Positions 42,500 through 49,495 of a stretch of DNA of 64,000 nucleotides are shown piece after piece. The DNA is from Candidatus Polarisedimenticolaceae bacterium. GTDB lineage: Bacteria > Acidobacteriota > Polarisedimenticolia > Polarisedimenticolales > DASRJG01. Each line of letters opens with the position of its first letter. Positions within the stretch are counted from its first letter, which is position 1. The notes under the pieces are model-generated. The model had not been told where the DNA came from. It worked only from the letters and a program-made list of their open reading frames with translations, and searched no databases. Both the position numbers and the translations under genes were made by a program. Where the stretch lies: NCBI GenBank assembly GCA_036275915.1, contig DASUCV010000022.1, forward strand, positions 1 to 64,000, in the 5' to 3' direction.

Positions 42500-44923
42500 C
42501 TACGGACACGGATTCGTGTTGGCCCTCGGCGCGCCTACGCTGTTCGTCCCCAGGCTGCCCTCGACGCCTCCCGCGACTCCGGTGACCAGGCTGAACGAGA
42601 CGTCCCCCGGATCCGGCACGACGTCGTCGAACGCGGAGGCGTCGGTCAGGCCGCAGTCTCGACCCGCCAGCGGATTCGATCCGGGCGCCTGGGTGTACTC
42701 ACCCGTTACGCGAAGCTCGGCCAGCGATCCGCGGTAGCGATTCCACATTGAGTATCCCGATTCCGGCTGCCACTCGACGTGGGTTCGGTCGTGAGGCCCG
42801 AGGATGTAGATGAGACCGTCGTTGAGGTCGCAGACATCACCTTCGCCGTCGTTGTCCCAATCCGACTGAGAGGGGTTGGAGGCGAGCGGACAGTTGTCGC
42901 AGGCATCGCCGAGGCCATCGGCGTCGGTGTCTATCTGCGACGGATTGTTCACGAACGGACAGTTGTCGACGTCTTCACAGGCCGCGTCGGCGTCCCTGTC
43001 TCGATCGAGATGTTCGCATCCGGTCAACGGGTTGCAACTGTCTGTGGAACAGGGATCGCCGTCGTCGCAGTCCGCTGCGGCAGCGCAGAGGTTGGCGTAG
43101 GCCCACGTCCCGGCCTGGTAGATCGTTTCGCTGACACCTGCAGCAAGCACGACGCGTCCTCGCGCACTGTCGAACGCCATGGCGTGGTATTCACGGGCCG
43201 ACGGACTCGTCGAAGGCGTCGTTTCGGTCCACGAAGTTCCATCCCACTGCCACGTATCGCCCCGCGGACCCGAGTCGTCGTAACCGCCGAAGAGCACGAC
43301 CCGCCCTCGCGCCCTGTCGTACGTCATCGCGGCGAGCTGGCGTCTCGAGGGAGCCGCCGCCGGCGACATCTGGGTCCACGCGGTGCCGTCCCATTCCCAC
43401 GTGTCGCCTCGAACGAGGGAACCGTCAACGCCGCCGAACAGCACGATTCGCCCTCGGGTCTCGTCGTACGCCATCGCGTAATCGGACGCGGAAGGCGGAT
43501 GCGTCGTGGCGCCGATTTGCACCCACGTGCTGCCGTCCCACTCCCAGGTGTCGCTAAAGCAACCGGAAGTGTCACAACCTCCGAAGAGCACGACCCGACG
43601 GCGCAGGCTGTCGTAAGCCATGGCGTGGGAGTCGCGGGGAGACGGGCCCCCGCTCGTGGTCTTGTCGAGCCAGGTCGCTCCATCCCACTCCCAGGTGTCG
43701 CCGTGAAAGAAGCCGTCGTAACCGCCGAAGAGGACGGTGCGCTGCCGGACACTGTCGTACGCCATCGCGTGACCGAAGCGTTTCGACGGACTCGTGGCCG
43801 GCATCCTCGCGGTCCAATTCGTCCCGTCCCATTCCCAGGTGTCGCCGCGGAATCCGGAGTTGTCACAACCCCCGAACAAGACGACGCGACCCCGGGCGCG
43901 GTCGGCGGCCAGCGCGGCACCTTCACGACGCGTCAGACCTGCAGATGTCCTTTCCGTCCAATTGGTGCCGTCCCACTCCCACGTGTCGCCGCGCGACGAG
44001 TGGTCGTAGCCGCCGAAGAGAACGATTCGATCGCGGGCGCTGTCGTAAGCCAGCGCGTGAAGCGAGCGGGCCGGCGGATGGAGGGCCGTCGTGACGTCGA
44101 CCCAGGTCGAGCCGTCCCACTCCCACGTGTCTCCCCGCAGTCCCGAAGCGTCGGCCCCGCCGAAGAGCACGACGCGGCCAAGCGCGCTGTCGTAAGCCAT
44201 CGCGAGGCCCGAACGGGCCGACGGGCTCACCGCGGGATTCTTGTTGGTCCAGTTGGTGCCGTCCCACTCCCACGTATCGCCGAGAGCCGTACCGATGGAG
44301 TAGTCGGCACCGCCGAAGAGCACCACGCGACCCCGCGCGCTGTCATACGCCAGCGCATGACGGCGCCTGGCCGGCGGACTCGTGGCGGGCGTCCTCTTCA
44401 GCCAGGCCGTTCCGTCCCACTCCCATGTCTCTCCCTGAGCGCCCCCGAAGAACACGACGCGTCCTCGCGCGCTGTCGAACGTCATCGCACTGTCGATCGT
44501 GCCCGAAGGCGTCGCGCTGTTCTTCGCGACCCAAGCGCTGCCGTCCCATTCCCACGTCTGCTGGGGCGCAGGGAGCGGGCTGAGATAGCTCCCTCCGAAG
44601 AGGACCACGCGCCCCCGGGCGCTGTCGTAAGCCATCGCGTGGCGGTTGCGCGGGTTCGGGCTCGGACTGGGCGCCGCCATCACCCATGCATTGCCGTCCC
44701 ACTCCCACGTGTCGTCGCGGCGCGCGCCGTCGTAGCCGCCGAAGAGCACGACCCGACCTCGAGTGCTGTCGTAGGCCATCGCATGGCGGTAGCGTGGCGA
44801 CGGACTCGGCTCGCCTTGCGCAAGGGACCAACTGGCGTTCGTCGACGAGATGGTGCTGGCGTGCGCCGCACCGCTTGCGAAGCAAAGTGCGATCAAGATG
44901 CAATTCACGCCAGTTCGTTTCAC
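42500..44923 (-). CDS. Secreted 12-repeat kelch protein with thrombospondin type 3 repeats and Cys-Pro tail
   Basis: An 807-residue exported protein. The GTG before [20 protein letters not shown] follows GGAGG and gives a signal peptide. Twelve kelch-like repeats of about 52 residues follow, each with [18 protein letters not shown] and [10 protein letters not shown], enough for two six-bladed propellers. A Cys-rich spacer ([18 protein letters not shown]) and thrombospondin type 3 repeats ([20 protein letters not shown]) precede a diverged version of the shared FN3-like tail ending NPCP. Likely a surface protein-binding or carbohydrate-binding scaffold. Confidence 0.9.
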
Positions 44924-45108
44924 GCGTACCTCCACAGGTTGGCCCCATCGATGTGGTACCGCGGGAAAAGCGAGCCGTCGCGCACCGTGGCCGCCCCCCA
45001 CGCCCGTTCGTGGCGAGATTATGTGTCAAGTTGGTCGCGTAGAAGCCCAACTCACTCGAGAGCGAGAGCGTGACGAGCGCCGACAGCAACTGATAGGCGG
45101 CCGTGCCT

Positions 45109-45186: not shown

Positions 45187-45912
45187 CTATTTCTTCTCGG
45201 CCAAGTTCTCGGCCACCGCGACCGCCATCTGGTGGCGGATCGAGTCGACGAGACTCATGGACGGAGCCGGGTATCCGACCTTCGAATTCACGAGGATCTC
45301 TTTGCCGGTCGTGGCCCTTCGGTAGAGACGCGCGTTCGCGTCCTTGTTGGGCTTCACGACCGATCCGTCGAGCGCGGCTCCCACGAAGAGACCCTGCGAG
45401 CGCGACCAGGTGAGGATCTGCGCGTGCATTTGTGCGTCGGTCGCGGCAGCAGCCGTGCGTCCCACGGGACCAGCCGTCGCGGCGCCTTCAGCACCCAAGG
45501 TGAACTTGTCCGCGAGGAGGTGGTCGATCCCCTTGTCGTTCATGATGAGCATCACGAGGTCGGCCGACTGGCCGCCGATCTGGAAACCGATGCTCGCGCC
45601 GCCGATGGTGTAGAAAGCGATGGGGCCCATCTCGCCGTTGTGCTGCCGGCACGAGGCGACGCCGTGTCCGCTCTTGCCGCCGACGATGAACGCGCCCTTG
45701 TCGACCGAGGGGAAGATGAGAATGCATTCGGCCTTCGAGAGGAGGTCCTGCGGGATCCCCTTGTCGGGCGCATTCGCAAGATCGCTGAGCACCGAGACGG
45801 AGTCGCCGAGCGTGGTCTTGTCGGCCTTCGTCAGCTGGGGCGGGGTCGTGGCGGCGGCTGCCGCCAACGCCAACAACACTGCCATGGGAATCATCGTCAA
45901 AGAAGCTCGCAT
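45187..45912 (-). CDS. SYLF (Ysc84-type) lipid-binding domain protein
   Basis: A 241-residue exported protein. The ATG before RASLTMIPMAVLLALAAAAA gives a signal peptide. The domain shows IPQDLLSKAECILIFPSVDK, GAFIVGGKSGHGVASCR, PIAFYTIGGASIGFQIGGQS, ADLVMLIMNDKG and WSRSQGLFVGAALDGSVVKP, all diagnostic of the SYLF domain, which binds phosphoinositides in eukaryotes and is a periplasmic or outer-membrane stress protein in bacteria. A copy of the ATGGGGT palindrome lies about 130 bases upstream; a strong terminator follows. Confidence 0.9.
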   Translation of the reverse strand: MRASLTMIPMAVLLALAAAAATTPPQLTKADKTTLGDSVSVLSDLANAPDKGIPQDLLSKAECILIFPSVDKGAFIVGGKSGHGVASCRQHNGEMGPIAFYTIGGASIGFQIGGQSADLVMLIMNDKGIDHLLADKFTLGAEGAATAGPVGRTAAAATDAQMHAQILTWSRSQGLFVGAALDGSVVKPNKDANARLYRRATTGKEILVNSKVGYPAPSMSLVDSIRHQMAVAVAENLAEKK

Positions 45913-46038
45913 GGTGAGGTACTTCCTTTCGTCCTTGTGGTTGCCGTCGTTCGTAGCACCGTGCACCGCGCCCGCACAAGGTTTACGGAAGCAGCCTTTC
46001 GCGTCGACGACCAAGCTAGGTGCTCGGCCGGCGGTTCC

Positions 46039-46058
46039 CCATGGGGTCTTACCCTACC
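46039..46058. promoter_or_regulatory. ATGGGGT palindrome, copy A (upstream of the SYLF gene)
   Basis: CCATGGGGTCTTACCCTACC; on the minus strand TAGGGT-AAG-ACCCCATGG. It overlaps the stop of the YWxENY gene and precedes the SYLF gene. Confidence 0.5.
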
Positions 46059-46396
46059 GGGTCCGACGGCGCTCGGCTCAGCAAGGGTCGCCCGGCGCGG
46101 TGCCACGCGTCGCTGACGGCGCTCCTGGCCTGACTCCAAGCGAGCGTGGACGCGCCCTTGACCTTGTCCCAACCTCGCTCGAGATCGGTTTCGACGCTAC
46201 GGAACGGCTGATTGCCCAAGCGGGCGCGAGACTCCCAGCCGTGTCGGTACGCCGGCTCGTAGTCGCCGTACACCCGGTGGCGTTCGACATAGCCTCGTTT
46301 GGAATAGTTCTCACTCCAGTAGGCCGCTTCCGCCTCTTCGTTCACCACGGCCGTGGCGCTCTGGCCCGCCACAACGCTCGCTGCCTGAATCGTCAT
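46049..46396 (-). CDS. Conserved YWxENY-family protein of unknown function
   Basis: A 115-residue soluble protein. AAYWSENYSKRGYVERHRVY, GDYEPAYRHGWESRARL, ETDLERGWDKVKGASTLAW and SDAWHRAG match a widespread uncharacterised bacterial family (YW...Y..R.YV....Y.DY.PAYR.G), often found with other general-stress genes. No signal peptide or catalytic motif. AAGGAGA precedes the ATG, and a palindrome sits about 70 bases upstream. It lies in the same orientation as the SYLF gene. Confidence 0.75.
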   Translation of the reverse strand: MTIQAASVVAGQSATAVVNEEAEAAYWSENYSKRGYVERHRVYGDYEPAYRHGWESRARLGNQPFRSVETDLERGWDKVKGASTLAWSQARSAVSDAWHRAGRPLLSRAPSDPVG

Positions 46397-46465
46397 GGGA
46401 CATCTCCTTCGGTGAGCCCGATGGCTGGCACCGAAGTGGACTGTAGGAGTCGGCTCGTGATGGCT

Positions 46466-46487
46466 CCATGGGGTGTTGACCCCATGG
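46466..46487. promoter_or_regulatory. ATGGGGT palindrome, copy B (upstream of the YWxENY gene)
   Basis: CCATGGGGT-GTTG-ACCCCATGG: a perfect 9-bp inverted repeat around a 4-base centre, about 70 bases before the start codon. Confidence 0.6.
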
Positions 46488-46510
46488 CCACCGAGCTGCC
46501 GGGGGGTTAC

Positions 46511-46915
46511 TCAACGGACCTTGCTGCCCTTGAACGTGTAGGTCAAGACCACTCCGTCATGCCTGATCCAGACCAGAGTGCCGTCGACGTCATCGCCATG
46601 AACCGTGCCCGTCCACGTCGAGCTGCCTTCGCCGGCACTTTTTCGTTCGGCCGTGAAAGTCAGGTCCTTCACCCCCGTTTTCGACACGGTGTAGGGCGCC
46701 GGGTCGCCCCCGACCTTCGCCGCGCCCAAGGTCACGTTACCGTCCGCGAACGTCAGCGTCTCCTTGAACTCCTGCTCTGCCTTGTCCTTGGCCATCGAAT
46801 CCGGCTTGACTTCGACCTTCCAGCTCGTGCCGTCGAGCACGGCGAGCTTGGGGCTTGCGACGGCCATCGAGCACAGCATGATCGCGAGCACTGCCCACCC
46901 TGATGTATTTCTCAT
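46511..46915 (-). CDS. Small exported lipocalin-like protein of unknown function
   Basis: A 134-residue protein. Signal peptide MRNTSGWAVLAIMLCSMAVA, then a beta-rich domain: DGTSWKVEVKPDSMAKDKAE, FKETLTFADGNVT, YTVSKTGVKDLTFTAER, STWTGTVHGDDVDGTLVWIR, VVLTYTFKGSKV. The G.W.....P......F.E.LTF..G pattern is common in periplasmic lipocalin-like proteins. AAGGGAGA precedes the ATG. Two palindromes lie upstream in the region shared with the divergent histidine kinase. Confidence 0.7.
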   Translation of the reverse strand: MRNTSGWAVLAIMLCSMAVASPKLAVLDGTSWKVEVKPDSMAKDKAEQEFKETLTFADGNVTLGAAKVGGDPAPYTVSKTGVKDLTFTAERKSAGEGSSTWTGTVHGDDVDGTLVWIRHDGVVLTYTFKGSKVR

Positions 46916-47010
46916 TCCGGTCTCCCTTCCGTGATGCGCGCGCCTCGGAAGAGGCGACGCGGGATACGATCGCAAGCGGTCTCATGATCAGAGCCGGGCG
47001 GGTACGGGCA

Positions 47011-47030
47011 CCATGGGGTGAACACCCCAC
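47011..47030. promoter_or_regulatory. ATGGGGT palindrome, copy C
   Basis: CCATGGGGTGAACACCCCAC; TGGGGTG-AA-CACCCCA is a perfect 7-bp inverted repeat, about 100 bases before the exported lipocalin-like gene. Confidence 0.6.
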
Positions 47031-47056
47031 GAGAGAGCTTCGACAGATCGGCCAGG

Positions 47057-47074
47057 TAGGGTTTCTCCCCATGG
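47057..47074. promoter_or_regulatory. ATGGGGT palindrome, copy D
   Basis: TAGGGTTTCTCCCCATGG; nearly identical to the minus-strand reading of copy A. It lies about 160 bases upstream of the histidine kinase start and 140 from the divergent gene. Confidence 0.5.
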
Positions 47075-47232
47075 TGGGCTCGAATCCGCCGACGCACGAT
47101 GGATCGCGTGTGCAGCCGAGGTTGACAGGTGAACGAGGTTCGCATCCCAGTGGACGGGTCGGGCCTGCCGCTCGACAATGACGATGGATTCGGTGCGCCG
47201 GCGGCGGTGCGCGCATCGAGGAGGGGTCGCGC

Positions 47233-48168
47233 GTGAATCGCCGATTTAGCGCCACCTCGAACGGGCCGCCGGCAGTCATCAAGTCGCAACCCGTGTTGAA
47301 GCCGACAGCCAGCCGCGGCGCGAGCGCGCGCCTCCGGCCCATCGACCTCGCATCCCTAAGACGGGAATTGAAGCGGGAGGTCCAACGCCGGCAGGATCTC
47401 CAGAAATCGCTCGCGTCGAGCCAACGACACTACGACGAGCTGCTGAAGAGATCCGCCCGCATGGAGGAGCACCTGCGGCGCCTTTCCCACGAGATCCTCT
47501 CGGCGCAAGAAGAAGAGCGGAAGCGGATCAGCCGCGAGCTTCACGACGAGATCGGCCAGATCTTGACCGCCGTCAACGTGAAGCTGGCGGCTTTGAGGGT
47601 CGAGTCCGCGAACAACACGACGGGCATAGAGACGAAAATCGCCGTCACGCAGCGGCTGGTCGAGCGATCGATGAACAGCGTGCACCAATTCGCCCGGCAG
47701 CTACGGCCGCCCCTGCTCGACGACCTCGGACTCATTCCGGCGCTCCGCTCGTCGATGAAGGAGTTTACGAAGCGGACGCGCGTCCGGATCCAGTTCACCG
47801 CGTTTGCGGCAGTCGAGCGGCTGAGTAGCGACAAGCGAACGGTGCTCTTTCGCGTCGTCCAAGAGGCTCTGACCAACGTCGCAAAGCACGCACGCGCGCG
47901 TGCGGTGCGCGTGAGCATCGTCAAGCTCAGGGGGACGGTGCGCATGGAAATCCACGATGACGGCAGGTCGTTTTCGGTCGAGCGCGAGCTGGCCGCCGTG
48001 AGGATCCATGGCCTCGGACTACTCGGCATGAGAGAACGGGTCGAGATGGTCGGCGGCAGCTTCGTCGTCGAGTCGGCGCCGGGCAGCGGCACGATCGTGC
48101 GTGCGGAGATTCCATTCGGGGAGAGCCGCCGGCGGCCGACGCGCGCACCGAAGAGAGGCCGGTCGTGA
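47233..48168 (+). CDS. NarL-family sensor histidine kinase (HisKA_3)
   Basis: A 311-residue kinase without transmembrane segments. An N-terminal coiled coil (LRRELKREVQRRQDLQKSLA) leads to HisKA_3 with His104 in ERKRISRELHDEIGQILTAV, then LRPPLLDDLGLIPALRSSM and a HATPase_c with VVQEALTNVAKHARA, IHDDGRSF, GLGLLGMRERVEMVGG and GSGTIVRAEIP. The signal is presumably cytoplasmic or passed from another protein. The GTG start follows GAGGAGGGG. Its response regulator overlaps as GTGA. Confidence 0.93.
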   Translation: MNRRFSATSNGPPAVIKSQPVLKPTASRGASARLRPIDLASLRRELKREVQRRQDLQKSLASSQRHYDELLKRSARMEEHLRRLSHEILSAQEEERKRISRELHDEIGQILTAVNVKLAALRVESANNTTGIETKIAVTQRLVERSMNSVHQFARQLRPPLLDDLGLIPALRSSMKEFTKRTRVRIQFTAFAAVERLSSDKRTVLFRVVQEALTNVAKHARARAVRVSIVKLRGTVRMEIHDDGRSFSVERELAAVRIHGLGLLGMRERVEMVGGSFVVESAPGSGTIVRAEIPFGESRRRPTRAPKRGRS

Positions 48169-48845
48169 CGCCGATCACCGTTCTACTCGCCGAAGACCAT
48201 GCCGTCGTCCGTGAAGGCCTTCGGGCGCTGCTCGCGATCGAACGCGACATCGTCGTCGTCGGCGAGGCCGGAAACGGCCGTCAGGCGGTGCAGCGGAGCA
48301 AGGCGTTGCGGCCGGCGGTCGTCGTGATGGATATCGCCATGCCGCTACTCAACGGACTCGAGGCCGCGCGGCAGATCCTCAAGGCTCTGCCCGAGACCAA
48401 GATTCTCGTTCTGTCCGCTCACGGTGACGATGAGTACGTCGAGCAGGTGATCGCGCTCGGCGCTCTCGGCTACCTTGTGAAGCAGACCTCGGCGCTCGTG
48501 CTCGCCAAAGCCATCCGGGAAGTTCACAAGGGGAACACGTACTTCAGTCCCGCGATCTCGAAACGCCTCACGGAACGCCGTGAGAGCACGATCCATGGAG
48601 CCTCGGGTCGAAGGAGGAAGCAAGACGTCCGCCTGACCTCGCGTGAGGTCGAGATCCTCCAGCTGATCGCCGAGGGAAAGGCCAACAAGCAAACCGCGGC
48701 CGAGCTGGGCATCAGCATCAAGACGGTCGAGAAGCATCGCCAGGCACTCATGGGCAAGTTGGGTATCCACGACACCGCCGGACTCACCCGCTACGCCCTC
48801 GCGGCGGGAATCATCGAGGGCGGCGTGCGATTCACGATCGAATAG
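48165..48845 (+). CDS. NarL/FixJ-type response regulator
   Basis: A 226-residue DNA-binding regulator. Receiver: VLLAEDHAVVREGLRALL, phospho-acceptor Asp56 in VVVMDIAMPLLNGLEAARQI, VLSAHGDDEYV, LGYLVKQTS with the conserved Lys. After a longer linker (residues 140-155) comes a LuxR-type HTH: LTSREVEILQLIAEGKANKQ, AAELGISIKTVEKHRQALMG, KLGIHDTAGLTRYAL. Translationally coupled to the kinase. The shared palindromes in the neighbouring minus-strand cluster are candidate binding sites. Confidence 0.94.
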   Translation: MTPITVLLAEDHAVVREGLRALLAIERDIVVVGEAGNGRQAVQRSKALRPAVVVMDIAMPLLNGLEAARQILKALPETKILVLSAHGDDEYVEQVIALGALGYLVKQTSALVLAKAIREVHKGNTYFSPAISKRLTERRESTIHGASGRRRKQDVRLTSREVEILQLIAEGKANKQTAAELGISIKTVEKHRQALMGKLGIHDTAGLTRYALAAGIIEGGVRFTIE

Positions 48846-49186
48846 CGGACGGAGCGGTAGGGAAACTCTTGCGAGGTGGTATGTGAGCTCGGAGTCCGAA
48901 CGTCGGAAGCCGGGGGAGCACGAGGCGCGTTCGAGCTTTCGGCCGGCGAAGCGTCCCCGGCGCCGATCGGCCGAGGCAGGACTCGACAAGCTGGACCTGG
49001 CCGACACCCAGGGTCAGACGCGTCGCGACGCACCTCGCCGTCGCGAGCGTCGCTTGGCGGAACCGAACTACGAATCGCTTCGAAGCGAACGCCGGAAACT
49101 GTGACGCCCCGCGTCACGGTCGCTTCCGCAAACCTTGTGCGGGGGCGGCCCGGAGACCCAACTACAAGGACGTAGGGAGTAGGGAA
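48846..49186. other. Intergenic stretch, no confident gene
   Basis: About 340 bases. A 73-codon frame rich in Arg and Glu with a weak GAGGTGG before GTG was considered but lacks other support. Probably the promoter region of the next gene. Confidence 0.45.
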
Positions 49187-49495
49187 ATGGGTTTTGCTCG
49201 CAGCGTTCAGTTCGTGGTCAAGAACGGCAAGGTCGATGAGTTCAAGCGCTTGTTGAGCAGCGAGATCCTGCCGCTGATGAAGAAGGAGAAGGGATTCCGA
49301 CTGATGCTCGTGGGTTTGGACCGGCAATCCGGCACCAGCATCTCGATGTGGGACGACAGGTCCGATGCGGAGGCCTTCGACACGAAGGCCTATCCCGAGA
49401 TCATCAAGCGGCTCAGCGCCGTTCTCGAGGGGACTCCCATCGTCCACATGTGCGAGACCGTGTTCACACTGATACCAGACGTCGTCCTCGCGTGA
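49187..49495 (+). CDS. Dimeric alpha-beta barrel (ABM-like) protein
   Basis: A 102-residue single-domain protein: ARSVQFVVKNGKVDEFKRLL, EILPLMKKEKGFRLMLVGLD, GTSISMWDDRSDAEAFDTKA, then LEGTPIVHMCETVF. The strand-helix-strand-strand-helix order is that of antibiotic-biosynthesis-monooxygenase-like ferredoxin-fold dimers. Members range from haem-degrading enzymes to quinol monooxygenases to non-catalytic stress proteins, so no reaction is assigned. TAGGGAGTAGGG precedes the ATG. Confidence 0.8.
   Translation: MGFARSVQFVVKNGKVDEFKRLLSSEILPLMKKEKGFRLMLVGLDRQSGTSISMWDDRSDAEAFDTKAYPEIIKRLSAVLEGTPIVHMCETVFTLIPDVVLA

Follow-up and report, generated by a model that had tools for sequence, protein, structure and literature searches.

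The window, i.e., the entire 64-kb stretch of DNA that was analyzed (G000:C22:1-64000, in a genome of 4.53 Mb), carries genes for a SYLF/Ysc84-domain exported protein, a YWxENY protein and a small exported protein on one strand, and, on the other strand, an operon coding for a histidine kinase and a NarL/LuxR-type response regulator (RR; Table 1). The kinase gene, of the HisKA_3 type, lies next to the RR gene and overlaps its start, as expected of a cognate kinase, and the RR combines a receiver with a GerE domain, the nearest full-length solved structures being those of VraR, DevR and NarL. The cluster is adjoined by a gene for a large Kelch-like repeat protein (42500-45001, minus strand) with recurrent TWEWDG...GRVVLFGG units.

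Table 1. Coordinates of genes, operators, promoter elements and the leader hairpin in the window cluster.
Feature	Coordinates	Strand	Remarks
SYLF/Ysc84-domain exported protein gene	45187..45912	-	Pfam PF04366, E 2.5e-33
Putative 5′UTR hairpin, SYLF mRNA	45913..45992	-	3′ arm over Shine-Dalgarno region
-10 TAGCTT, SYLF promoter	46013..46018	-	28 nt from first C of CCCC; assigned from conserved position
Asymmetric operator	46039..46056	-	TAGGGTAAGACCCCATGG; TAGGGT-N3-ACCCCATGG; toward SYLF
YWxENY gene	46049..46396	-	no Pfam match
-10 TACAGT, YWxENY-gene promoter	46440..46445	-	
Palindromic operator	46466..46487	-	CCATGGGGT-gttg-ACCCCATGG, perfect 9+4+9; toward YWxENY gene
Small exported protein gene	46511..46915	-	no Pfam match; homologues with site in G019, G031
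Probable weak -10 GATCAT, small exported gene	46984..46989	-	spacing 29
Palindromic operator	47011..47032	-	TGGGGT-gttc-ACCCCATGG; toward small exported gene
Asymmetric operator	47057..47074	+	TAGGGTTTCTCCCCATGG; TAGGGT-N3-TCCCCATGG; toward kinase-RR operon
Probable weak -10 CACGAT, kinase	47095..47100	+	spacing 28
Histidine kinase gene, HisKA_3 + HATPase_c	47233..48168	+	PF07730, E 2.9e-14
NarL/LuxR-type RR gene, proposed motif binder	48165..48845	+	PF00072 Response_reg, E 2.1e-25; PF00196 GerE, E 5.5e-18

Two forms of a proposed operator in the window and in the genome

Four copies of an inverted-repeat motif are found within 1.04 kb (46039-47074), starting at 46039, 46466, 47011 and 47057 as recorded in the initial annotation, and no further copies are present elsewhere in the 64-kb window, the chance expectation being about 0.04 per 64 kb. 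With up to one mismatch allowed, dinucleotide shuffles predict 0.01 asymmetric and 0.03 palindromic sites in 64 kb, as compared with two of each observed, and none of the 100 shuffles yielded two sites of either form. The consensus originally given for the motif, T(A/G)GGGT-N(3-4), described genuine sites but lumped together two distinct forms, one with TAGGGT and a 3-nt spacer and the other with TGGGGT and a 4-nt spacer. The palindromic form reads ATGGGGT-N4-ACCCCATRG and the asymmetric form GGTAGGGT-N3-RCCCCATRG, with both asymmetric sites of the window, 46039(-) and 47057(+), fitting TAGGGT-N3-WCCCCATGG; these are two versions of one operator, to which the same protein would bind. The arms of the palindrome at 47011 match perfectly over 6 bp, the 7th base being mismatched, and the site at 46039 extends into the 3′ end of the YWxENY gene. 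Even placement of the copies, which had also been suggested, is not borne out, as the gaps measure 427, 545 and 46 bp; instead, there is one site per promoter.

The whole genome contains six exact copies of the asymmetric core TAGGGT-N4-CCCCAT (two in the window, three on contig C18 and one on C20) and two of the palindrome, both inside the window; the reversed patterns, searched genome-wide as a control, gave no matches for either form. The C20 site is located upstream of a small exported-protein gene, and two of the C18 sites precede genes for a YHS-type and an RRM-type protein, both named from sequence, with no clear gene assignable to the site at C18:33883. The plus-strand sites at C18:33883 and C18:53101 each lie in a stretch of about 57 bp that is the same at both places and includes the asymmetric operator and the -10, in surroundings that appear sparsely coding in a rough gene call; the two copies look as if one promoter had been duplicated.

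Promoter geometry and a conserved leader element

Alignment of asymmetric sites displays GGTAGGGTTWYRCCCCATRG and then one further strongly conserved block, TANNNT. Of the 79 sites, 35 have this block starting at exactly 28 nt, counted from the first C of CCCC (as do 15 of 25 sites from the phylum to which the window belongs), and at most a handful have it at any other offset. Among the 120 orientations of 60 palindromes, TANNNT is found at 28 nt in 23 cases and at 29 nt in 11, and it follows from the offsets in both forms that the distance between the -10 and the proximal half-site is constant, and that it is the distal half that shifts by one base. The occurrence of this sigma70-type -10 at one exact downstream distance places the operator across the -35 position, in the geometry of a class II activator. 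If transcription starts about 7 nt past the -10, the center of the operator would be near -43 and its edge over a weak or absent -35, so that the RR would act as a class II activator. Within the window, the -10 is matched exactly at two of the four sites (SYLF and the YWxENY gene) and weakly at those of the small exported gene and the kinase.

The strict distance between the motif and the -10 is also what one would see if the motif were part of a promoter read directly by an alternative sigma factor, which we find very hard to credit: the 28 nt separating CCCC from the -10 exceed the spacing of ordinary -35/-10 pairs, the -10 itself resembles that of sigma70, and the element is dyadic and comes in two spacer variants. 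It is also improbable that the RR binds the motif as a repressor, or acts both ways, since the exact -10 spacing in the absence of a conserved -35 suits an activator and a repressor would need no fixed spacing, even though an operator lying over the -35 position can block RNA polymerase as well. Under activation, a phosphorylated RR dimer would bind two inverted half-sites, of which the proximal one, (A)CCCCATRG, is constant and lies 28 nt (first C to the T of the -10) from the sigma70 -10, and the distal one is TGGGGT with a 4-nt spacer or (GG)TAGGGT with a 3-nt spacer.

The position of the sites, upstream of the -10, led us to reject the palindrome as an RNA element, and Rfam returned no match. 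A second conserved element, CTTCCGYAAACCTTGTGCGGG, was considered as a promoter and rejected: at SYLF and at the C20 gene it is located past the -10, and it can pair with the Shine-Dalgarno region, for which reason we read it as a 5′UTR hairpin. This 5′UTR element is common to SYLF, the C20 exported-protein gene and two ABM-like genes, named for their resemblance to antibiotic-biosynthesis monooxygenases (the copy in the window yielded no Pfam match). Pairing of its arms (CUUCC/GGAAG and CCUUGUG/CACAAGG) is possible over a loop that varies between copies, and would cover the Shine-Dalgarno region. In addition to the SYLF leader in Table 1, it is present at 49122-49189 (+) in the window, at L055 and L056, and at G004:C1:113891-113971 and G019:C54:17589-17660, SYLF carrying it in both G004 and G019; a covariance model recovered only these six elements among 41 genomes, and none had a match in Rfam. 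Folding of single sequences makes the arm pairing clear in only some of the copies. The two compensatory pairs detected, a level of covariation reached in 83 of 500 shuffles, are no more than suggestive of a helix.

Association of the proposed operator with RR orthologues

Orthologues of the RR that are 60-70% identical to it occur mainly in Verrucomicrobia, Phycisphaerae, Omnitrophica and Lentisphaerae. The 687 kb surrounding 80 of them contain 103 sites, of which 49 are palindromes, spread over 34 of the 80 loci, and 54 are asymmetric (TAGGGT-N4-CCCCA). The spacer is narrowly defined: for GGGGT-Nx-ACCCC, x=4 accounts for 49 occurrences and x=3 for five, with hardly any at other values of x, and the reversed-sequence control at x=4 yielded no palindromes across the same 687 kb. 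Site density peaks beside the kinase-RR block, declines with distance from it, and is zero within the block. Sites were judged by orientation and by the -10, as counts of coding and intergenic positions are made unreliable by spurious antisense ORFs. It should be kept in mind, as points against the RR as the binder, that about half of the RR loci lack a palindromic-type site, and that a site is found directly upstream of only 7 of 54 kinases, with some others preceded by a site upstream of an earlier gene in the operon.

Within the phylum, we surveyed 297 genomes that were at least 90% complete, counting as close orthologues of the RR those with E below 1e-90. Such an orthologue is present in four genomes and two or more asymmetric sites in seven, and all four are among the seven (p 1.1e-7, or 5.5e-7 with a weaker match in G303 included, in either case resting on four RR-positive genomes). 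In the RR-positive genomes, the G flank is present at all asymmetric matches and the -10 at most of them; in RR-negative genomes, six asymmetric matches were examined, all of them without the -10 and only one with the G flank. G001 and G031 depart from this pattern: both have genuine-looking sites, those in G001 with a -10, and in neither was an RR orthologue detected. Since both assemblies are incomplete (G001 is in 180 contigs, and G031 is 84% complete), the missing RR may correspond to an assembly gap.

Sites with the correct flank in G001 and G031, and the presence in the genome of several paralogous NarL-type RRs, could also mean that some other regulator, either one of those paralogues or a further factor residing in the same stress clusters, binds the motif, its association with this two-component system being incidental. 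We consider this unlikely. The paralogous RR loci examined had no sites, the sites are clustered beside the kinase-RR pair, the phylum-wide association is with the RR orthologue, and no other gene was as consistently shared among those noticed in a non-exhaustive comparison. In favor of the RR, its recognition-helix region shows strong conservation among orthologues and is different in the paralogues. Taken as a whole, the data are very probably explained by the motif serving as the operator of the adjacent NarL-type RR, which would bind it and act as a class II activator of stress-type genes. This agrees with the initial annotation, which had proposed a single regulator and named the neighboring LuxR-type RR as the candidate: that is still the best reading, given the enrichment of the motif around RR orthologues in other phyla, the co-occurrence of RR and motif in the 297 genomes, the fixed class II distance to the -10, and the recurrence of the site upstream of SYLF in G004 and G019 and of homologues of the small exported gene (46511) in G019 and G031. 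The kinase, too, retains the site in other genomes.

Predicted regulon, kinase input and known systems

In the window, the predicted targets of activation by the RR are SYLF and the YWxENY gene, along with the small exported gene and the operon that encodes the RR and its kinase; elsewhere in the genome, they are the exported-protein, YHS-type and RRM-protein genes. The Pfam families recurring downstream of the sites include the kinase itself, RsbU_N proteins, BON, Ysc84/SYLF, DUF5670, CBS, EipA and glycosyltransferases, although the downstream genes were picked by a simple gene caller and some assignments may be wrong. Other putative members were recognized by resemblance as Dps-, DUF883-, DUF892-, DUF3309-, PRC-barrel-, M48- and entericidin-like. 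Judged from the family names (mainly SYLF, BON, DUF5670 and CBS), the putative regulon reads as a set of genes for general or envelope stress.

Orthologues of the kinase often start with an RsbU_N domain (PF08673), as in L112, L116 and L134. With rsb names based on STAS, HATPase and SpoIIE matches and on gene order, L116 displays the order rsbR-rsbS-rsbT-rsbX-kinase-RR, and L134 has rsbS-rsbT-rsbX-kinase ahead of the RR; in L112, L123 and L108, a site is found upstream of rsbT-rsbX-kinase-RR. No RsbU_N was detected in the window kinase, which matches solely HisKA_3 and HATPase, and there are no rsbR/S/T genes adjacent to it. An apparent stressosome operon with rsbR/rsbS-type genes, an RsbU_N protein or kinase and an RR of its own is located at G000:C9:18223-21578 (L234), and is separate from the two-component system of the window. 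The stressosome link thus holds for some relatives, with no sign of it at the window locus, where the kinase is devoid of RsbU_N and the rsb genes are elsewhere, on C9. It is possible, and we propose it tentatively, that a sigma-factor-independent general stress response is common to PVC bacteria and to some bacteria dispersed over other phyla, in which partner switching between RsbT and an RsbU_N kinase would be relayed to a NarL-type RR and on to a large envelope/stress regulon through one class II operator; the window would then represent a derived branch whose kinase has lost RsbU_N.

The NarL heptamer is TACYYMT, which the half-site ACCCCAT of the window appears to resemble. In the 7-2-7 sites of NarL the CAT ends face each other; in the window operator, in contrast, the ACC ends face each other, so that both sequence and arrangement differ. 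LuxR-type class II activation involves a lux box near -42.5, and the window operator would similarly be centered near -43, over a -35 position that has no conserved hexamer, and is followed by a sigma70 -10. Unlike the lux box, however, it exists in two forms with the distal half moving by one base, and the signal would reach the RR via a histidine kinase rather than a diffusible ligand. VraR (5hev), DevR/DosR (3c3w) and NarL (1a04) share with the window RR the receiver and GerE domains over the full length and an inverted-repeat operator.

RsbU_N kinases in stressosome operons have already been noted (PMC12143880, citing Heinz 2022; PMC9237108), and the passages of these two papers that we consulted give no operator or regulon for the partner RR. 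The orthologues of the window kinase in L112, L116 and L134 are comparable to the kinases described there in having RsbU_N and in being located beside rsbT and rsbX, and in L116 and L134 also rsbS; the window kinase differs from them in lacking RsbU_N and in being outside of a stressosome operon. The literature that we searched by sequence, by genes and by stressosome/PVC context contained no description of the operator or regulon, and our data support an operator-promoter code, conserved across phyla, for a NarL-type regulator. This RR family, in Verrucomicrobia, Planctomycetes and other groups, can now be given a DNA code together with a promoter geometry and a set of genes, and the code makes its regulons predictable by pattern search. 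With the Bacillus SigB general stress response, the system shares a similar kind of stress output and, in its relatives, partner-switching inputs; unlike SigB, the output would be delivered by an RR acting on sigma70-type promoters with no alternative sigma factor. The system thus provides a specific setting for asking by what route stressosome-type signals could act on genes when no SigB-like sigma factor is involved.
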